The notes under the pieces are model-generated. The model did not search any database, was not told where the DNA came from, and saw nothing but the letters and a program-made list of their open reading frames with translations. From positions 1 through 63,934 of IMG/VR virus record IMGVR_UViG_3300019360_000003: 63,934 nt of DNA; one strand, given 5' to 3'. Positions 2,945 through 13,693 of the stretch are shown here, in pieces. Every line of letters starts with the position of its first letter. The stretch's first letter is position 1. The position numbers and the translations under genes were made by a program. This DNA is from a virus.

Positions 2945-3487
2945 ATGCCGCAAGAATACGCGCCGGCGCCTGACGTCGAAGAGGTCGCTCGCGACCTCAT
3001 AGATTCTTATCACTCTCACCTGGCGAGCGTCAGGATTGATTTCGTTTTCGTGAGCGAGTCCCTGAAGGAGAAGGGAAAGCTTGTATGGGGCCGCGCCAAA
3101 AAGGTTGGCGGCCTCAACGCTTGGCTGGCGTCGGAGACCAGAAGGCCGGACGCTATACAGCCACAAGAATTCTTTGTGGTTGAGATCGACCGCAAGGTGT
3201 GGGGGCAACTCGACGACAAATGCAGGAGGGCGCTCGTAGATCACGAGCTGACGCATCTGGACGTCGATATAGACACAAGCAAGCTCTCGATCCGCCCGCA
3301 CGATCTCGAAGAATTTAATTCAATCGTCCGCCGCTACGGCCTTTGGCGCGACGATGTCCAGTTGTTCATCGAGGCCGCCAAAGACGAGCGGAAACTGTTT
3401 GAGACCAGGATCGAGCGAATCATCGAGCGAATCAACGAGGGGGCGCTGGGGCCTGAAGTGTCGGCCTCACGCGTGAGCGCCGGATGA
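2945..3487 (+). CDS. Putative phage metallopeptidase (PF18894-like)
   Basis: This 180-aa protein contains HELTHLD at about residues 100-106, a zinc-peptidase HExxH-type motif, preceded by the RALVDHEL context typical of the putative phage metallopeptidase family. A downstream HDLEEFNSIVRRYGLW segment matches the conserved C-terminal part of that family as I remember it. An upstream FVFVSES strand fits the same fold. These proteins are common in early phage operons with unknown substrate. Ribosome site GAGGTAACC is weak. Confidence 0.8.
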   Translation: MPQEYAPAPDVEEVARDLIDSYHSHLASVRIDFVFVSESLKEKGKLVWGRAKKVGGLNAWLASETRRPDAIQPQEFFVVEIDRKVWGQLDDKCRRALVDHELTHLDVDIDTSKLSIRPHDLEEFNSIVRRYGLWRDDVQLFIEAAKDERKLFETRIERIIERINEGALGPEVSASRVSAG

Positions 3488-5105: not shown

Positions 5106-6299
5106 TTGTCCAACAAAGTCAGCGGTAAAGTCTGGGAATTGGATTTGGATCCCATTGACAAGCTAGTGCTCTTAGCGCTGGCCGATCACGCGGATCATGA
5201 GGGGAACAACGTGCGACCAGGGAACGATCTGATGTGCGCAAAAACCGGTCTGAGCGAGCGCACAATCGGCAAGAAGATCGAGAAATTCATTCAACTTGGG
5301 ATCCTCATCCCTGTGCGTTTAAGCGCCGGGCCGGGCAAGTTCCGGGAGTTTTCTCTCGTGGCTGACCACCTCCCCCGCCACGAACTCTTCATCAAGAGAG
5401 ACCTGAAAAAGGTCGAACCGCGTTCGACTGTTCACAAACAAACAGTCGAACGCGGTTCGACTGTTAAGGGTCCGAAGTCGCCTAAATCGCGCTCGACAAC
5501 TCGACAAAGAACAGTCGAACCTGGTTCGACTGTTCCGTCGAACCCCATTCGACCGTTCACAGAGAAACAGTCGAACCTGGCGCAACCAACGGTCGAACCT
5601 GGCGCGCTAACGGTCGAACCTGGCGCCGATTCGCATGATAAGGAACGCGCGCGCGTTCTGAACCGTCATGAACCGTCATGTGAACCGTCAGAAGAAGAAG
5701 CCGCTCCTCCTCCCTTCGACAACTTCGCCGATCCTCTCTCCGAACTCGCATCCGCTATCGCGACTGTAATGGGTCTTCCCGCCGCGCCGGAAGGCGATGC
5801 CGCGGCGCCGATCAACGAAGCGGCGTCCGAGTTCCTGGCGGCCGGCTTGACCCCATCGGCTGTCTCCGAGTTCGAGGAGGATTTTTACCGCCGCAAAAAC
5901 CAACAGGGCAAAAAGTACGTCCTCACGCTCAAGATCCTCCGCGAGGATCTGCCTGGCTGGTCACGCGCCAATCGTATGCGACAGGTCGCCTCTCGCGCCG
6001 GCGCGAATGGCGCCGCGAAAGAAACCCAGAGCCTCGACCCGCAACCCCCTCGACCCAGAGTCGGCCAATGGGGCCAAGCGCTCACCCTGCTCGACACCCT
6101 GATCGGCTCTGACGCTGTCGCCGCATGGTTCGCGCCGCTCGAATTCCTCGGCGTCGAAGACGCTCAGGTTCGGTTGCGGTGCCCCGACGCCGTCTTCCGC
6201 GACTGGATCGAACGGAATTATTCAGCGCAGCTCGCCGACGCGCTGCGCGAGGTTGGACTGGGAGGCCGCGCGGTTTTCGAGATTGGAGGCTTATCGTGA
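5106..6299 (+). CDS. Phage replication initiator: winged-helix N-terminus, DnaA-domain-I-like C-terminus
   Basis: A 397-aa protein, TTG start at 5106 with GAGG upstream. Residues 1-95 resemble the helix-turn-helix of phage O/RepO-type initiators (LSERTIGKKIEKFIQLGIL). Residues about 100-180 are a low-complexity linker with repeated TVEPGSTV-like units, encoded by DNA iterons. Residues about 325-393 (ALTLLDTLIG...WFAPLE...DWIERNYSAQLADAL) resemble DnaA domain I, which recruits the replicative helicase. The inferred role is binding the in-gene origin and loading host DnaB. Domain I at the C-terminus is unusual relative to DnaA. Confidence 0.75.
   Translation: MSNKVSGKVWELDLDPIDKLVLLALADHADHEGNNVRPGNDLMCAKTGLSERTIGKKIEKFIQLGILIPVRLSAGPGKFREFSLVADHLPRHELFIKRDLKKVEPRSTVHKQTVERGSTVKGPKSPKSRSTTRQRTVEPGSTVPSNPIRPFTEKQSNLAQPTVEPGALTVEPGADSHDKERARVLNRHEPSCEPSEEEAAPPPFDNFADPLSELASAIATVMGLPAAPEGDAAAPINEAASEFLAAGLTPSAVSEFEEDFYRRKNQQGKKYVLTLKILREDLPGWSRANRMRQVASRAGANGAAKETQSLDPQPPRPRVGQWGQALTLLDTLIGSDAVAAWFAPLEFLGVEDAQVRLRCPDAVFRDWIERNYSAQLADALREVGLGGRAVFEIGGLS
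5411..5626 (+). other. Candidate origin: AACRGTCGAAC iterons inside the initiator gene
   Basis: About seven copies of a GTCGAAC core lie in 216 bases. Two form perfect 25-base palindromes, AACAGTCGAAC-NNN-GTTCGACTGTT (5441-5465, centre GCG; 5510-5534, centre CTG). A palindrome truncated on its left arm sits at 5412-5432. Degenerate or single sites follow at 5536-5557, about 5566, 5589 and 5610. Iterons inside the initiator coding sequence match the lambda O/ori arrangement. Confidence 0.65.
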
Positions 6300-6727
6300 T
6301 CGAAGACGTTTACGGCGAACTGACCAAAAAGCTCGAGGACTTGGCTCCCGCGTACTCTCTGCGACTCGACGCCGGCGAGCTGGAGGCCTACCGCGTCGAG
6401 CTGGCCCGATTTCCGCTCGCGGTCGCGCTCGTCGCGCTGGACGCCGCGCCGCTGATCTTCCCGGCGGTTTTCCCGAGCCTCGATGAGATGGTGGATCTGT
6501 GCGAGCGAATCGCGTCCGCGGCCCCGAGACTCGTCCAGGATCTCGCGCTGGTCGCCGAGTGTGAGCACGAGTACCGCTTCGAGCCCGAGCCGGAAGGCGG
6601 TTTGTATTCCGGCTTCGACGTTTGCTGCAAGTGCGGCCGCGCGAAGCCTCGCGTTAACGAGGCCCCGCCGCCGGTCCAACTGGAATATTTCCGGATGGCC
6701 GTGAATCCGCAGGGGAGGGAAAACTGA
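6296..6727 (+). CDS. Zinc-ribbon-like early protein
   Basis: A 143-aa protein with GTG start overlapping the initiator's stop (GTGA) and GGAGG 7 bases upstream. A helical N-terminal half is followed by CEHEYRF near residue 84 and CCKCGRAKP near residue 110, a CxH...CxC pattern suggesting one zinc site. Operonic position right after the initiator suggests a replication-accessory role, but this is only context. Confidence 0.55.
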   Translation: MIEDVYGELTKKLEDLAPAYSLRLDAGELEAYRVELARFPLAVALVALDAAPLIFPAVFPSLDEMVDLCERIASAAPRLVQDLALVAECEHEYRFEPEPEGGLYSGFDVCCKCGRAKPRVNEAPPPVQLEYFRMAVNPQGREN

Positions 6728-7068
6728 TGGCGACCGCGCTACGAGCCGCGGACATCGAGTCCCAATACGAGGCTGCGAAAGGCTCCCTTCACGCCCTGGT
6801 CATCGAGCGAGCGCGCCGGATTGTCGAAGAGCCCGATCTCTATTTCGCCCCGGAACAGCGCGACCGCGAGCTGATCTGGCAAATATGGGCGCGCTGGCGA
6901 GAGTTCGCCGCGCTCCACGCGCAATACCTATCCACGCGCGGCGAATACCTGATGCTCGGCTGTCTCATCGGCGAGCACAAAAAATGCAGGCGCGAGATCG
7001 TTCGCGCCGGCGCGCGATTGGTTTGCGGTTGCGCGTGTCATAAAACCCAAGGAGGAACCAATGAATGA
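6727..7068 (+). CDS. Cys-rich hypothetical protein
   Basis: A 113-aa protein sharing TGATG with the previous stop. The N-terminal two thirds are helical. The end carries C..H..C...CGCACH (about residues 80-106), a likely zinc site. No family recognised. It overlaps the start of the DUF3102-like gene by 8 bases, so translation is probably coupled. Confidence 0.55.
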   Translation: MATALRAADIESQYEAAKGSLHALVIERARRIVEEPDLYFAPEQRDRELIWQIWARWREFAALHAQYLSTRGEYLMLGCLIGEHKKCRREIVRAGARLVCGCACHKTQGGTNE

Positions 7069-7990
7069 ATTGATCGAAGCGACCCAACCCGAAGTCGTCG
7101 GTCAGCACGCGCTCTTCGATTACGCGCAGCTCGACCACGACACGCAGATTGCGATCCGGATCAAGACCAGCGAGATCAAATCGCTGGCCAAGCGGATGGC
7201 GGGCGACGTGGTGGAGATCGGCGGGAAGTTGGCCGAGGTGAAGGATCATCTGGGCGGCAACGGCCGCTTCAATGACTGGCTGTCGGCGGAGCTGGGCTGG
7301 AGCGAGCGCACGGCGTACAACTTCATTGCTGTTTGGCAGAAGTTCGGCGCCGCAAATTTTGCGCTGGAGAACGTGGCTACGTCGGCCCTGTATTTACTCG
7401 CCGCGCCGTCTACGCCGGCGGAGGCTGTGGAGTCGGCCAAGCGGATCGCTGAGGAGGGCGGGGAGGTCACGCACGCCGTGGCGAAGGCTATAGTCGAGGA
7501 GGCGAAGCAGGCGCGGCGCGCCAATACCAGGCCGGAGCTCTTCGCGGTGGAAGACGAGGAGCGCGAAGCCGATCAGGAGTCCGCTGAAGCCGCGCCTGCG
7601 GAGCCCGCCGAGGCGTCCAGCGCTGAGAGGCCGCGGGATGCGACGGACAAGACGAACACCAAAGAGATCGAAGCCGCCTGGCGCAAGCATGGCGTCATGG
7701 TCACGATCCAGCTCCTGCCAGCCAAGCACACCGAGCGCCAAGCGATGGTCACGGTTCGCGCCGGCGACCTGGAGCCGCTGAGCAAGGTGAAGCCCGAATC
7801 GGAAGTCATCTTCGTGGGCGCATTGCTTGAGCTGATCGAGCAGTACAAGCGCGAGCTGCCGGCGAAGATAGCAAATCGCAAGCCGGCGCCGAAGACCCCT
7901 GCGAAGTCTTCAGCGAAGCCCGCGCCCAAGGCCGCGGGTAAACAAGCCCCCAAGTCGGCTAAACAAAAACCCGCGAAAGCGCGCAAATAA
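7061..7990 (+). CDS. DUF3102-like protein, possible PRTRC-E-like C-terminal region
   Basis: A 309-aa protein with strong ribosome site AAGGAGG. Residues about 25-110 (EIGGKLAEVKDHL...FNDWLSAELGWSERTAYNFIAV) match DUF3102, a helical DNA-associated domain of plasmids and phages. An acidic linker (about 160-200) joins a small domain at about 205-265 that ends in a Lys/Ala/Pro-rich tail. That second part is similar in style and position to PRTRC protein E, which precedes C in such cassettes. The E assignment is weak. Confidence 0.6.
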   Translation: MNELIEATQPEVVGQHALFDYAQLDHDTQIAIRIKTSEIKSLAKRMAGDVVEIGGKLAEVKDHLGGNGRFNDWLSAELGWSERTAYNFIAVWQKFGAANFALENVATSALYLLAAPSTPAEAVESAKRIAEEGGEVTHAVAKAIVEEAKQARRANTRPELFAVEDEEREADQESAEAAPAEPAEASSAERPRDATDKTNTKEIEAAWRKHGVMVTIQLLPAKHTERQAMVTVRAGDLEPLSKVKPESEVIFVGALLELIEQYKRELPAKIANRKPAPKTPAKSSAKPAPKAAGKQAPKSAKQKPAKARK

Positions 7991-8026: not shown

Positions 8027-8311
8027 ATGGCGAAAATCAAAATCGAAGGGCAAACAATCGAGATGGACGACGAGATCGCCGGCGACGACGAATTGCTGAA
8101 GGCCGCGCTTGCGCCGAGCTGGCCCGACGCGAAGACAGCGACGTTCACGCGAACGGGCGGGAAGGACAAGGAGCTTGTCGTCAGCGTGACTAAAAAGGCC
8201 GGCACGAAGGGCATGGACGACGCCGAGATCGAAGCGCTCTTGCTCTTCGATCGGCGAGAGGAGCGCGAGAAGCGAGACGCCGAGCGCATAAGCGAGAGGA
8301 GGGGCGCATGA
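8027..8311 (+). CDS. PRTRC system protein C, prokaryotic ubiquitin-like protein
   Basis: A 94-aa protein with ribosome site GAAGGAGAG. Residues 1-62 resemble the Prok_Ub/PRTRC-C family, a short beta-grasp protein whose members, as I remember them, end in GTKG. Here GTKG is at residues 59-62 and is followed by a 32-residue charged helical tail. The tail looks like a pro-peptide that the JAMM protease at 10609 could remove to expose a C-terminal Gly. Fold and processing are inferred from family and context. Confidence 0.65.
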   Translation: MAKIKIEGQTIEMDDEIAGDDELLKAALAPSWPDAKTATFTRTGGKDKELVVSVTKKAGTKGMDDAEIEALLLFDRREEREKRDAERISERRGA

Positions 8312-8556
8312 CCGGACTTATCGAGCGCCTGCTCGCCTCCCCCGAGGCCCCCAACCCCGCCGTCGAGATGAGCGCGTGGCTCGCCGAGCTGCAGCGATCC
8401 GGCCAGCTCGATCAGGTCCGCATCCAGGAGTTGCTCCCCGCGATCGAGGCCGCGGCCGACCAGGGCGAGCGCGATCTCGACGGCGCGGGGGCCGCGCGGA
8501 GGAGCCTGGAGCGCGCCGGCGCTATACCATCGAAGGAGGTCCCACTCGGGTTTTGA
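8308..8556 (+). CDS. Small helical protein in the PRTRC cassette
   Basis: An 82-aa protein with an ATGA overlap with protein C. It is rich in Ala/Glu/Leu/Arg and probably helical, with no recognised domain. The tight coupling implies co-expression with the Ub-like protein, for example as a partner or substrate, but nothing in the sequence shows this. Confidence 0.5.
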   Translation: MTGLIERLLASPEAPNPAVEMSAWLAELQRSGQLDQVRIQELLPAIEAAADQGERDLDGAGAARRSLERAGAIPSKEVPLGF

Positions 8557-8557
8557 T

Positions 8558-8866
8558 ATGGAAGGGCTGACCGAAATCCAAGCGTCAAAACTTGCGCTGC
8601 TATCCGCTCATTTGTCTCTGACCGTCCCACTCGCGATTGGCGATCTACAGGCTCGCGGTGGACCGACAAAGACCGATCTTGAGTTCGCGGCAGCCTTCGG
8701 CGCAACGCTCGCTCATAAAGGTGACGTCTTGCTCTACAGAGGCAAGAGGGGCGAAGCGGCTGATTTGGTAAGTCGGCTAGCGCGCGCGCTGGCTGTGCTG
8801 GCCTTCCAGCCTGGTGGCGTTGAGATTTTTGGACTTTGCTTTGAGGCGGAAAAGCGCAATGACTGA
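8558..8866 (+). CDS. Hypothetical protein in the PRTRC cassette
   Basis: A 102-aa protein starting one base after the preceding stop. A GAAGGAGG sequence lies 18-20 bases upstream, farther than usual, so coupling probably drives initiation. Mixed alpha/beta composition with an alanine-rich helix (DLVSRLARALAVLAF). No family recognised. Confidence 0.5.
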   Translation: MEGLTEIQASKLALLSAHLSLTVPLAIGDLQARGGPTKTDLEFAAAFGATLAHKGDVLLYRGKRGEAADLVSRLARALAVLAFQPGGVEIFGLCFEAEKRND

Positions 8867-8877
8867 GGAGGCGATCA

Positions 8878-9129
8878 ATGGACATTGGCGATCCTAAAAC
8901 TGTCGCAGCGTTATTGCTTGGCTTCCCACCAAATAAATTCGAGATCACGAAGCAGATGGTGATTGCTACGCCCCGCGAGTCGGGCGGTCGCTTCGTCGAT
9001 CTCAAGGTGACCGAGCTTAAAGGCGGCCAGCGCCTCTTCGAGGTGGCTTGGCGTGGCGGCCACAAGCGCGTCGCGACTGAGGCTGAGGCTGTGGCTTTGT
9101 TTTTGGAAAAGCTGAAGGCGATTCAATGA
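8878..9129 (+). CDS. Small alpha/beta hypothetical protein
   Basis: An 83-aa protein with a good ribosome site (GAGGAGG, 6-7 bases before ATG). It has alternating strand-like stretches (VDLKVTEL...RLFEVAWRGG) and a C-terminal helix. It overlaps the next gene by ATGA. Unknown function, within the Ub-like cassette. Confidence 0.55.
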   Translation: MDIGDPKTVAALLLGFPPNKFEITKQMVIATPRESGGRFVDLKVTELKGGQRLFEVAWRGGHKRVATEAEAVALFLEKLKAIQ

Positions 9130-9932
9130 CTCGAAAGAAAGCCAAAAAATCGAAGAAGCCCTCCCCTCGCGCCAGCGCCCAGGACGCCGTTCTGCATCTG
9201 CGCCTCATCCAGTACGGGGCGCATATCGTCGAGCTTTACGAGAAGTTTTTCCCCAAGGAGTTCGACGGGATTGATTACAGCTCCTTCGAGGCGCTGCTCG
9301 CGTCGTACGACCGCTTCGCGCTGCTCGTCAACGACAATCTGTTTCCGGTCCACGCGTTCAGCTCGAACGATCTGATGTATGAAGAGCCTGATCACAACCT
9401 CCACACGATGGAGATCTGTTTTCACGGCTTCAGCTCTTTCGTCTGGTTCGACCGCATGAACCACGGCGAGGAGGTATCGGTGGTCGAGAGGATGCTTGTC
9501 TCCGCGGCCGGCTATCACGATTTCCCGATGGTCAAACTCGGGCCGCCTAAAGACCACAGGTTTAGCAGTGAGAAGCTCCAGGAGGTCTCCTGGAAGCAGA
9601 AGGGAATGATCTCGCGCCTGTGGCTCGCGGCGATGGCCGTGCTCGGCGGCACGGGCAACGTATGGCTCGATCTGTCCGAGGAGGAATACTACGCGTCGGA
9701 GCCGCCAGAGTGGAACGAGGCTCAGATCATGTGGCTCGCCAGCGAGTTCAAGGAGGCTCAGAGAGTCTCCGATCAGGTCAACGAGTTCCTCGTCTGGGCC
9801 GACTCGAAGGAGAAACTCGAGCGGATCGAGCGGCTACTCCGCCGGGCGCAGGTTCCGGATAAGCCTATCCGCATGAAGGTCCGGGATCTTCCCGAGGTCC
9901 CACTCGTCGAAGCGTTGGGAGGCGTTTTGTGA
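9126..9932 (+). CDS. Possible PRTRC system protein F
   Basis: A 268-aa protein overlapping the upstream stop. After a basic N-terminus (RKKAKKSKK), the body is alpha/beta. The C-terminal third (GNVWLDLSEEEYY...PEWNEAQIMWLASEFKEA) resembles, from memory, the conserved C-terminal part of PRTRC protein F, and the position between C and B matches the usual order. No catalytic motif seen. The alternative is an unrelated hypothetical protein. Confidence 0.45.
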   Translation: MTRKKAKKSKKPSPRASAQDAVLHLRLIQYGAHIVELYEKFFPKEFDGIDYSSFEALLASYDRFALLVNDNLFPVHAFSSNDLMYEEPDHNLHTMEICFHGFSSFVWFDRMNHGEEVSVVERMLVSAAGYHDFPMVKLGPPKDHRFSSEKLQEVSWKQKGMISRLWLAAMAVLGGTGNVWLDLSEEEYYASEPPEWNEAQIMWLASEFKEAQRVSDQVNEFLVWADSKEKLERIERLLRRAQVPDKPIRMKVRDLPEVPLVEALGGVL

Positions 9933-10618
9933 GTAAACGGGTCTCCAAAAATCTGATCCCCGTGGGTGTGAACCCCCAGGCGGCGATCTACCTGGTCAAC
10001 GACCAATTTCTCCTCGTCGCCAATCGCGACGGCAAGGTCGAGCAGAAGTACGTCAGCCCCGGCGCGGTCCGGAGCGCCTTCGCCGCCGAGCCGGTCGACA
10101 CGGGCTGGATCCCCGAGGGCGTGCGCCGCTGGGGCGTCGGCGCGAAGGGCGTGTACATGCTGCGATGGCATGCGCCGGCGGTGTATTCGGTCTGGCTGCC
10201 GGAGCGCAAGCGCCAGGCGCGCGTCCCGATGCCGGCGCTCGTGTTCTTCGCGCAAGCGAAGGCCTATTACATTTGGGCGATGAGGGGCGACAAGTTCGAC
10301 CCGAAGGGACTGCTCTTCAACGCGCCGTGCGCCAATGTCAACAACCTCGGGCTGATTTGCTGGGGGTCGAATCCGCACCTCGACGTCGCTGAAGGCGGCG
10401 CCTTCGACCGGATGTGGAGCCTCTTTTGGGAGGCGCCGTTTTCCGGCGACCACGAGGCCGGCGCGAACGCGCGCATGGCGGAGCTCGCGCGGAAGAAGGT
10501 CGAGCGGTTTCCGGAGGCCGAATTGACGCCGCTTTCGCATCGGCTCGTGACAGGGCCTTGCACGCTGGAGGCCGTCGTGGAGCGATTTACGAGGAGAGGA
10601 GAAGATCAATGGGGTTAG
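9929..10618 (+). CDS. PRTRC system protein B, E2-like (Prok-E2_D type)
   Basis: A 229-aa protein with GTG start overlapping the previous stop and GGGAGG upstream. Residues 65-160 contain WHAPAVYSVWLPE, VPMPALVFF, a YYIWAMRG strand and LLFNAPCANVNNLGLICWG. These match the core of PRTRC protein B, which belongs to the proposed prokaryotic E2-like families. The Cys in NAPCANV or in LICWG could be the thioester residue, but I cannot tell which. Role inferred: carrier in conjugation of protein C. Confidence 0.7.
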   Translation: MSKRVSKNLIPVGVNPQAAIYLVNDQFLLVANRDGKVEQKYVSPGAVRSAFAAEPVDTGWIPEGVRRWGVGAKGVYMLRWHAPAVYSVWLPERKRQARVPMPALVFFAQAKAYYIWAMRGDKFDPKGLLFNAPCANVNNLGLICWGSNPHLDVAEGGAFDRMWSLFWEAPFSGDHEAGANARMAELARKKVERFPEAELTPLSHRLVTGPCTLEAVVERFTRRGEDQWG

Positions 10619-11304
10619 TGACTGATGTTTTGAATTCGGCCTACGCCGCCGAACCGCCTGCAGTCCTCATCGGCTACCTCCTGAATCAGGAGGAGGGATT
10701 GAGGCCTCCGCCGCAGCGTGGAGGCCTCTACGATTACGTCCTGAGCGCCGACGGTCTCTATCTGCACGCGCGACGTGAGGAGATGGAGGTCAGCTTCCCG
10801 ATCCTGCCCGGGGCCTCAGGAGTAATTCGAGGATTGCGGCCGACTGCGCCTGTCTTCGATTTTCATCTCCCGCTCGTTCCCGCGGGCTTGGTCACCGAGC
10901 TGTGGGCGCAGGCCGAGGACTGGGCGAATCAAGGCCTCGAAACGCTCTTTCATCTCGTCTGGTCGCCAGTCTACCCGTGGAATAACGGGTGGGGACTCGA
11001 TACGCCCGAGCAGGAGCGCTCCGCGACCAGGTGCAAGCCGCTCCACGACGGCCCAGGCTCGTCTCACGAGAAGGCGATCGTCGAGATCCATTCCCACCAT
11101 TTGATGCCCGCGCGGTTCTCGCCGACGGACGACAAGGACGAGACCGGCTTCCGCCTGTACGGTGTGATCGGCCGACTGCCCGAGGCGCCGGAGATCCGGC
11201 TGCGCGTCGGCGTGTACGGTTATTTCTGGGAGATTCCCGCGTCGTGGGCGCTGGAGCTGCCGGAATGTTTGAGGGATTGCAACGCGGAGGACTGGGATGG
11301 CTGA
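10609..11304 (+). CDS. PRTRC system protein A, JAB/JAMM-type protease
   Basis: A 231-aa protein with ATG 10609 inside the end of gene B and ribosome site GAGGAGAGGAG. It carries a full zinc-peptidase signature HSH-x7-SPTD at residues about 161-174 (H161, H163, S171, D174), in a strand context IVEIHSH. JAMM proteases cut isopeptide bonds to ubiquitin or process Ub-like precursors. With Ub-like C, E2-like B and ThiF alongside, it is the deconjugating or processing enzyme of the cassette. Confidence 0.75.
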   Translation: MGLVTDVLNSAYAAEPPAVLIGYLLNQEEGLRPPPQRGGLYDYVLSADGLYLHARREEMEVSFPILPGASGVIRGLRPTAPVFDFHLPLVPAGLVTELWAQAEDWANQGLETLFHLVWSPVYPWNNGWGLDTPEQERSATRCKPLHDGPGSSHEKAIVEIHSHHLMPARFSPTDDKDETGFRLYGVIGRLPEAPEIRLRVGVYGYFWEIPASWALELPECLRDCNAEDWDG

Positions 11305-11544
11305 CTGGAAAGAGCTCCGATACGCGCTCAGCCTGCGCGAGTTCGAGCCGCAGAGCTGGCGGGATTATGCGCTTATTCCCTGGCACGTAGCGGGCTGGCT
11401 ACTCGCTTGCGTCTTGACGGCCCTGCGAAGCCCATTCCTGAAACGGAGCATTTTTATCACCTCCGATGTCTGTCCGCGGCCGCCGCGATGGCGCTCGTCT
11501 TTTCACTGTTGGCGATTTATGAAGCGATGAAGGAGGAGACATGA
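11297..11544 (+). pseudogene. Membrane protein gene with a reading-frame break
   Basis: The ATG at 11297 overlaps the stop of gene A. The first frame encodes a soluble start and one membrane helix (WHVAGWLLACVLTAL), then becomes unlikely sequence. From about 11435 the -1 frame becomes coding-like (IPETEHFYHLRCLSAAAAM, then a second membrane helix) and ends at TGA 11542-11544, which overlaps the next ATG as elsewhere in this operon. A -1 shift at about 11425-11440 restores a two-helix protein of about 82 aa. Mutation, assembly error or recoding are all possible; no classic slippery heptamer is visible. Confidence 0.5.
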
Positions 11545-11804
11545 TCAGATCAATCGCGCCTCCGCCGCCGTGTGATTGTTGCGGGGCGGAGTATCGAAAC
11601 ACCGGCTGCGTGCGTGGGTACGGCTGCGACTGCCCTGGCTTCGCTACTTTTTGTGAGGTCTGCAAATTTTGCATGACGCACTGCCAGTGCGACGAGGCGA
11701 TGAAGGCGGAGTTTTCCGTCGCGCGCGCGGATTACCTGGAGGCGCTGCGGCTGATCAGATGCGCGCATCCGAAACAAATTAATAAAAAGCTGGCGTCAAT
11801 TTGA
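11541..11804 (+). CDS. Cys-rich zinc-binding protein
   Basis: An 87-aa protein with GAAGGAGGAG before ATG. The first 60 residues hold ten or more Cys in CxxC, CxC and CxxCxxC groupings (CDCCGAEY, CDCPGF, CEVCKFCMTHCQC), indicating two or three zinc sites of the treble-clef or ribbon kind. A zinc-finger protein in a ubiquitin-like operon could be an E3-like adaptor, but nothing else supports that. Confidence 0.6.
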   Translation: MIRSIAPPPPCDCCGAEYRNTGCVRGYGCDCPGFATFCEVCKFCMTHCQCDEAMKAEFSVARADYLEALRLIRCAHPKQINKKLASI

Positions 11805-12444: not shown

Positions 12445-12858
12445 ATGGACATCGAACTGGCGAAAGAGATCACGGCTAAATGCGTCGAGACCTCACTCTC
12501 GCTCACATTGCATGACCGCTACCAGCCTCTGCCAGACATTGAGCTGGCCGACCTGGTCGAAGCGAACCGACTCGTCGCGGAGATGGAGCCTGAGCGGCAG
12601 GCCGACGGTTCCAGGAATCATTACATCCACGTCGACCCGCGTGGGATCGCGCTCCACTACGCGTTCAAGCATTTCGGCCTGTCACCGAATCAAATGCTTG
12701 AGGCGCTGGGGTTCGGCTTTGACGAGGACTGGATCGAGTTCTGCGCTGGCTGCTGGAAGTTCACGCGCAAGGACCTGGTGCGGTTCATGAACGGCCATCT
12801 CTATTGCGAGGATTGCCGGAACTTGCTTAAGGAGCAGGAGAATGCCGAAACCCATTGA
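12445..12858 (+). CDS. Zinc-finger hypothetical protein upstream of ThiF
   Basis: A 137-aa protein with ribosome site TAAGGAGGCC. A helical N-terminal domain precedes CAGCWKF (about residue 98) and CEDCRNL (about residue 120), a four-Cys zinc knuckle. It overlaps the ThiF gene by 17 bases, so the two are co-translated. A substrate-binding or adaptor role in the cassette is possible but only contextual. Confidence 0.6.
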   Translation: MDIELAKEITAKCVETSLSLTLHDRYQPLPDIELADLVEANRLVAEMEPERQADGSRNHYIHVDPRGIALHYAFKHFGLSPNQMLEALGFGFDEDWIEFCAGCWKFTRKDLVRFMNGHLYCEDCRNLLKEQENAETH

Positions 12859-13693
12859 CCTCTCCTACGCCCGGGCCGCGCAACTGTTGCTGCCCGCCTA
12901 CGACCGCCTGCGCCTGATCCTCGTCGGCTGCGGCGGGACCGGGAGCTGGCTCGCGCCGTCGGTCGCGCGGATCGCCAGGCTCCAGCGCGAGCAGGGCAGG
13001 CCTGTTGAGTTACTGTTTTACGATCACGACCACGTCGAGCCCAAGAATATCCCCCGGCAAAATTTCTGCGACGCCGAACTTGGCCGTAACAAGGCCGTCG
13101 CGTTGGCCGCGCGCTTCTCCGCGGCGTGGGGCGTGGAGATCGCGGCGGTTCCGCGAAAATTCCGGGCCGCGTCGTTCGATTGGCCGCAGGCCGGAACCCT
13201 CACGATCCTGATCGGTTGTGTGGATAACGCCGCGGCGCGCGGCGAGATGGCGAGCGTGGTCAAAACGCAAAGGTTCGACCTGCTGCCGGCCTGGTGGCTC
13301 GACTGCGGCAACGAAGAATCCTCCGGCCAGGTGATAGTCGGCTCGACCATTCAGCCGAAGGATCTCGCCGGCTCGTTTACGCCGTCTTGCAAAATTTGCA
13401 AAGCGCTCCCCGCGCCCTCGCTGGTCGCGCCGGATCTGCTGGTCGCGAAGCCGGAGGAGTTGGAAGACTCGAAGGTGTCCTGCGCCGAGATGCAGGTACT
13501 CAACGCCCAGAGCCTGGCCGTGAACCAGACGGTCGCCGCCATCGCGACGGATTACCTACTGGGGCTCCTCGGCGGGAAGTTGCGAAAATTCGCAACTTAT
13601 TTCGACCTGGCGAGCGGGTCGATGAGGTCGAAGTATATAACCCCCGAGGAGATCACCGGCGCGATCAGGCGGCCGCCGGCGTATTTGATCTAG
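12842..13693 (+). CDS. PRTRC system ThiF-family E1-like adenylyltransferase
   Basis: A 283-aa protein with AAGGAG upstream. The nucleotide-binding loop GCGGTGS is at residues 30-36, followed by FYDHDHVEPKNIPRQNF (about 59-75) with the Asp that binds ATP-Mg and the conserved N..RQ. ELGRNKA follows, then WLDCGNEESSGQVIVG and a CKIC pair near residue 183. This is the ThiF/E1 fold that adenylates the C-terminal Gly of Ub-like proteins. It completes an E1-E2-Ub-JAMM set. ParB and protein D of the canonical cassette were not found. Confidence 0.8.
   Translation: MPKPIDLSYARAAQLLLPAYDRLRLILVGCGGTGSWLAPSVARIARLQREQGRPVELLFYDHDHVEPKNIPRQNFCDAELGRNKAVALAARFSAAWGVEIAAVPRKFRAASFDWPQAGTLTILIGCVDNAAARGEMASVVKTQRFDLLPAWWLDCGNEESSGQVIVGSTIQPKDLAGSFTPSCKICKALPAPSLVAPDLLVAKPEELEDSKVSCAEMQVLNAQSLAVNQTVAAIATDYLLGLLGGKLRKFATYFDLASGSMRSKYITPEEITGAIRRPPAYLI

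Follow-up and report, generated by a model that had tools for sequence, protein, structure and literature searches.

Comparative evidence for a phage ubiquitin-like precursor probably trimmed by a JAMM protease of its own operon

Introduction

An operon of a temperate phage encodes a ubiquitin-like (Ub-like) protein in which the motif GTKG is followed by 32 further residues. Is this protein synthesized as a precursor, from which a JAMM protease of the same operon exposes a C-terminal glycine, or does the tail have a different meaning? The original prediction, made from the DNA alone, favored the precursor and named a simple fusion or a degenerated copy as the alternative. In eukaryotes, polyubiquitin, Ub-eL40, and Ub-eS31 are in-frame fusions in which ubiquitin is joined to further ubiquitin units or to a small protein of a different kind and is freed by proteolysis (PMC6721733). 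In bacteria, the JAMM protease BilC pre-processes BilA, exposing its C-terminal glycine, in the antiphage system BilABCD (PMC11354881, section 2.4); JAMM pre-processing of a bacterial Ub-like protein is thus already known. JAB proteases have also been predicted to release Ub-like domains in phage tail proteins and in ThiS/MoaD fusions (PMC1779556; Iyer et al. 2006), and the same study describes an operon type, 6d, with a small standalone Ub-like protein that has a conserved C-terminal glycine. We take type 6d to be the PRTRC system, a mapping that is our own. PRTRC systems are common on large plasmids and also occur in phages. Our literature search found no paper on their function, nor did it find the coupling of tails to JAMM genes, the fusions of the Ub-like domain to a partner, or the tandem forms in phages described for the PRTRC-type family; a family-wide coupling is likewise unmentioned in the Bil review (PMC11354881).

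Results

The ubiquitin-like gene and its tail

The window, by which we mean the whole 63,934-nucleotide stretch of DNA analyzed (IMG/VR record IMGVR_UViG_3300019360_000003), is that of a tailed temperate phage, in which the terminase, portal, major head protein, tape measure, and integrase were all matched. The Ub-like gene has the following parts.

8027..8311, + strand: Ub-like protein of 94 residues, with the Ub domain at residues 1–62 and the tail at 63–94 (from the sequence, homologues, AF2 model, and E1 tree)
8201..8212, + strand: GTKG codons, residues 59–62, with the predicted cut after G62 (from the sequence, the terminal glycine of relatives, and the drop in conservation)
8213..8308, + strand: charged 32-residue tail, residues 63–94, predicted to be removed (from a ~95-nt insertion relative to the related locus L215, and phmmer)

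The predicted ORF, with GTKG at residues 59–62 and 32 residues behind it, was confirmed by translation. The tail, MDDAEIEALLLFDRREEREKRDAERISERRGA, is abundant in Glu, Arg, and Asp and is followed by the stop codon TGA at 8309–8311. As encoded, G62 is internal, and it would become a C-terminal glycine available to an E1 only after the proposed cut.

Homologues on cyanobacterial plasmids align to residues 3–68 with 37–48% identity and E values down to 8e-7 (tblastn) and lie in the same E2-JAMM-E1 operon; the ORF is a real gene. No NCBIfam or PHROGs family matched the protein, the single Pfam match was far under its cut-off, and Prok_Ub (PF14454) was unmatched in both the Pfam and the genome searches; by curated profile, the protein therefore falls outside both PRTRC-C (NCBIfam) and Prok_Ub. 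The latter profile touched just 4 of 38 fused relatives (best E 0.019). Used as a query, the window protein gave one hit among viral contigs, L001, and none among phage records; L001 was rejected as a viral relative, being an unrelated phage protein.

The AF2 model consists of a β-grasp-like domain (EE-HHH-EE, with pLDDT 83–87 across residues 1–40), a flexible stretch at residues 56–64, and a helix at residues 65–93. GTKG lies within the flexible linker both here and in the model of the L215 protein, and Foldseek returned nothing under E 0.001 for either model. VIA-align rows for the window model were mostly ubiquitin, which gave the best superposition among the chains compared, some rows superposing residues 1–61 on ubiquitin up to its residue 76, but with Z of at most 5.5 and an rmsd of 2.0 Å over 57 residues this similarity is weak and not high enough to be relied on by itself. 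Searching solved structures by sequence gave none for the E1 or the JAMM protein and none convincing for the Ub profile.

A PRTRC-related operon

The Ub-like gene belongs to an operon with the following further genes.

7061..7990, + strand: protein upstream of the Ub-like gene in the PRTRC-E position, a putative role, with PF11300 (DUF3102) at its N-terminus
9126..9932, + strand: PRTRC-F-like protein, positioned like its counterpart in cyanobacteria and Cupriavidus and grouped with them by HMM clustering in which the window protein was itself a seed
9929..10618, + strand: E2-like protein, Prok-E2_D (PF14460, E 5.7e-22, 78.7 bits with a cut-off of 25; PRTRC_B, E 1.4e-14)
10609..11304, + strand: JAMM protease, Prok-JAB/PRTRC_A-like (PF14464, E 4.4e-6; PRTRC_A, E 1.7e-10; motif)
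12842..13693, + strand: E1-like ThiF protein (TIGR03736, E 6.2e-41; PF00899, E 1.2e-12)

The JAMM protein is intact and has the motif Glu...H-x-H-x(7)-S-x-x-D (GLETLFHL ... HSHHLMPARFSPTDD). Its gene had been predicted to adjoin the Ub-like gene; it lies in the same operon, though some 2.3 kb downstream. The E1 has 283 residues and a single ThiF domain, and the 7061–7990 protein resembles the 7520–7987 protein of locus L002 in position and motifs.

With Ub-like, Prok-E2_D, Prok-JAB, and ThiF proteins in one operon, and with the Pfam gathering scores exceeded by the last three, the window falls within the broad PRTRC-related lineage. It shares with PRTRC the order E-C-F-B-A-ThiF, common to cyanobacterial plasmids and Cupriavidus PRTRC, as well as the Prok-E2_D E2, the JAB protease, the ThiF-like E1, and a small Ub-like protein with a conserved glycine. 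It differs in that the Ub-like protein carries a tail, is accompanied by a helical partner, and matches no family model, and in that its scores lie under the equivalog cut-offs: 54 bits for PRTRC_B (131.45), 40.8 for PRTRC_A (101.8), and 140.3 for PRTRC_ThiF (144.75). Judged by sequence, then, the operon is homologous to the PRTRC system yet a separate lineage. Like Bil, it combines an E1, an E2, a Ub-like protein, and a JAMM protease in one operon, but in Bil the Ub-like domain is doubled (BilA) and the E1, BilD, contains a pair of adenylation domains (IAD and AAD). The window encodes a PRTRC-F-like protein, a single Ub domain of 62 residues, and an E1 with one ThiF domain, and so is neither a Bil system nor a carrier of BilA.

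Two ORFs at 8558–8866 and 8878–9129, situated between the partner ORF described below and the PRTRC-F-like gene, have no family match. Between the JAMM and E1 genes lie two small Cys-rich ORFs with CxxC pairs (11541–11804 and 12445–12858), resembled by an ORF at 8563–8952 of locus L007; it is possible that the window pair encodes adaptor or E3-like parts.

Tails accompany JAMM genes across loci

An E1 alignment served to retrieve loci from collections of genomes, viruses, and plasmids; annotated classical PRTRC plasmids were added, and each locus was scored for the presence of a JAMM gene and for the number of residues after the glycine that ends the Ub domain. Viral scans with single E1 seeds gave two loci for L145 and none for L170. 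Reducing redundancy at 85% E1 identity left 120 loci. All 24 JAMM-less loci, meaning loci with no JAMM gene at the locus itself while one elsewhere in the host is possible, end at the terminal Gly or Ala (Ala in two). Extra residues were found in 87 of the 96 JAMM-bearing loci, and more than 12 residues in 76 of them (Fisher 3.5e-18). JAMM absence was verified by motif scan and gene-by-gene reading in six loci (L144, L145, L161, L110, L112, and L075). On the E1 tree, the JAMM state changed about eight times by parsimony, and a four-state model of correlated evolution was favored over independence (LR 42.6, p 1.2e-8, 120 loci).

An independent check drew on two isolated phages and on genomes from Acidobacteria and cyanobacteria, added once models and definitions had been fixed. 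The tail was absent from all three JAMM-less Acidobacteria loci with intact E1 and present in all 15 non-redundant JAMM-bearing loci, where it often comprises just one to three freely varying residues, after which the partner is encoded by a separate gene. Combining everything gave 139 non-redundant loci, in which tail-less and tailed proteins number 27 and 2 without an intact JAMM, and 9 and 101 with one (Fisher 7e-19; phylogenetic test p 8e-9). Tails common among JAMM-less homologues had been named as the finding that would speak against a precursor; the opposite was seen, 27 of 29 such loci being tail-less. Errors in the tree or an unbalanced sample of loci might reduce this coupling, but would hardly abolish it.

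The two exceptions, L060 and the later-added L367, were counted as JAMM-less in the 139-locus comparison; both lack the GxGGTG loop of E1 and look decayed. The L367 protein extends two residues past the glycine, and its shortened JAMM is fused to the loop-less E1. Both loci are cyanobacterial, and in each an N-terminal portion of JAMM reads in frame into such an E1 (L060 9848–10852 and L367 8732–9694), with both active sites lost.

The expectation that PRTRC-C proteins end at GTKG holds for classical PRTRC plasmids without PRTRC-A, in which the Ub-like protein ends in GTKA*, GDRG*, GAKG*, GDKG*, HANG*, or GTKG*, but not for many of those with PRTRC-A, which have 3 to 71 extra residues (one has 0).

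The junction and the tandem proteins

The last residue of the Ub domain is glycine in 116 of the 120 loci. Among 73 tail-bearing proteins, position −1 is Gly in all 73 and position −2 is Lys in 72, and the information falls from 4.32 bits at −1 to 0.89 at +1; the value for Gly is partly set by definition, as junctions were positioned by that column, but the Lys and the subsequent drop are independent of it. Across 38 fusions, Lys-Gly are the sole two invariant residues. What follows is diverse: 48 of the tails belong to one family, that of the partner, and the others, about 25, are unrelated sequences that come after the same GxKG.

Tandem copies were found twice. Locus L152 (IMGVR_UViG_3300047563_000187, 6052–6492), on a 175-kb viral contig with a JAMM gene, encodes two tandem Ub-like units, both ending in RTGTKG. 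In Vibrio phage D69 (OZ195729.1; L340, 4373–5176), three tandem units each end in GTKG, with linkers between them; JAMM, E2, and E1 genes lie beside this protein, which is annotated as hypothetical. Type 6e polyUbl operons, where the JAB domain usually forms a fusion with E1 and the E2 is inactive (PMC1779556), likewise have tandem units and a JAB domain, but in L152 and D69 the JAMM, E2, and E1 proteins are encoded by separate genes in a PRTRC-like set.

A cut after the glycine is suggested by the near-invariant internal Lys-Gly, the free sequence that follows it, the exact ends in the absence of the protease, and the tandem copies taken together. Several observations stand against a precursor: nine JAMM-bearing systems are tail-less; L060 and L367 have tails without an intact JAMM; L090 (7314–7781), L124, and L125, from Herpetosiphon and viral contigs, have GTKA in place of GTKG with a tail of ~87 residues and JAMM present; and the window E2, JAMM, and E1 score under the NCBIfam equivalog cut-offs. 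The nine tail-less systems imply that JAMM does something else as well, presumably deconjugation, to which maturation may be secondary.

These nine systems, together with the long modeled helix at residues 65–93, could also be read to mean that the tail is retained, the product being a non-conjugated Ub-like protein whose helix works as a linker or in binding, while JAMM serves only to remove conjugates formed with other proteins. We consider this unlikely, because it leaves unexplained the exact terminal-residue ends in 27 of 29 JAMM-less loci, the invariant Lys-Gly at an internal junction, and the lack of relationship among tail sequences of different loci.

Origin of the tail

Two further features lie at and beyond the 3' end of the gene.

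8297..8302, + strand: AGGAGG, putatively the site where ribosomes bind to translate the partner ORF, within the last tail codons and ending five nucleotides before the partner ATG
8308..8556, + strand: helical partner domain as a separate ORF with an ATGA overlap (E 1.1e-13 with a partner HMM from which the window was left out; alignment with L215)

The profile was needed to recognize the partner, since BLASTP of this ORF against the tail of L002 alone gave no match. In Anabaena, Gloeothece, and Trichormus, ~80 more residues directly follow GTKG in the same protein as the Ub domain, and in Pseudanabaena (L003) the Ub-like protein ends in GTKGAT* and the ~80-residue partner is a separate gene with a 4-nt overlap. 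The E1 tree places the window locus beside L215 and L012, with L215 closest (support 0.895). L215 is a plain fusion, in which the ~80-residue helical partner comes straight after GTKG (...KKAGTKGSGLLIERMLLQPEYINPA...), and DNA alignment shows that in the window ~95 inserted nt separate GTKG from the partner; the insertion is unique to the window and has shifted the frame. As L215 is fused, the window carries the insertion, and the partner is now the next ORF, we derive the tail from a split of the ancestral fusion. No tail homologues were found by phmmer among the loci collected by that stage, and no exact copies of the tail DNA longer than 14 nt were found elsewhere in the window. Judged from these alignments, the tail is a private leftover of the split, an accident of descent and not a conserved module. 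It follows that the simple-fusion alternative was also partly true.

A private, frame-shifting insertion could also mark a degenerated copy, i.e., a broken gene in a decaying system, and decayed relatives are known in L060 and L367. Against this, the window has an intact E1, E2, and JAMM, each retaining its motifs, the two parts of the former fusion still have open reading frames, the partner has AGGAGG and an ATG, and short, freely varying tails are common among other JAMM-bearing systems. We regard decay as quite improbable, and still less probable is programmed −1 frameshifting that would join the two ORFs and keep the Ub-partner fusion as the true product. The second ORF does lie in the −1 frame with a 4-nt overlap, but the partner has a ready AGGAGG-ATG start, and Pseudanabaena L003 has the identical overlap behind GTKGAT*. 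A frameshift signal was sought and rejected, as there is no X XXY YYZ heptamer ahead of the stop (AGC GAG AGG AGG GGC GCA TGA).

Discussion

Since tails occur essentially only with the protease gene among the 139 clusters, a precursor that is trimmed, as eukaryotic ubiquitin is, appears probable. The JAMM protein is the obvious protease, being intact, encoded in the operon, and of a kind whose absence accompanies tail-less Ub-like proteins. The comparative tests all favored the predicted precursor (the tail-JAMM coupling, the Gly/Ala ends without JAMM, the invariant Lys-Gly, and the tandem units). The picture needed three corrections: the tail is not a conserved module, classical PRTRC-C proteins often carry tails, and the JAMM gene is not directly next to the Ub-like gene.

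In the mechanism that we propose, the product of ORF 8027–8311 would be a Ub-like modifier synthesized as a precursor. The operon JAMM would cleave it after G62, giving a 62-residue modifier with a free C-terminal glycine and a disposable 32-residue tail, whereupon the E1 (12842–13693) would adenylate the freed glycine and the E2 (9929–10618) would conjugate the modifier. The tail would have no function of its own, being a linker that remains from the ~95-nt split of the ancestral fusion, and its last codons would double as the ribosome-binding site of the separate partner gene. We infer cleavage, the exact cut position, and conjugation from comparison of sequences, and consider this reading as a whole, from trimming after G62 to a functionless tail, to be likely.

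With somewhat less confidence, we favor extending it to PRTRC-type systems of bacteria and phages in general. These would constitute a precursor-ubiquitin family, in which a modifier ending in Lys-Gly is fused to a helical partner, to unrelated tails, or to its own copies, PRTRC-A acts as the maturation protease, and lineages without the protease must encode the mature form. If true, this arrangement resembles Ub-eL40, Ub-eS31, and polyubiquitin. The likeness lies in the in-frame fusion of ubiquitin to other ubiquitin units or to a small protein of a different kind (PMC6721733), whereas eukaryotic ubiquitin ends in GG rather than KG, the protease family and partners are different, and cleavage in our systems is a prediction. 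A rule linking the form of the modifier to one protease would imply that these are genuine conjugation systems and that a precursor step is part of them. It would also mean that bacteria and phages possess ubiquitin fusions and genes of the polyubiquitin kind, a point relevant to the origin of the eukaryotic precursor arrangement.

The isolated Burkholderia phage BgVeeders33 (L339, 5839–6410) encodes a Ub-like protein with a 62-residue tail together with E1, E2, and JAMM, and would be a handy laboratory model. The window also encodes a putative phage metallopeptidase upstream of the operon (2945–3487; PF18894, E 2.3e-30), and in L112 a protein with a HELLH motif (5944–6645) adjoins the Ub-like gene.
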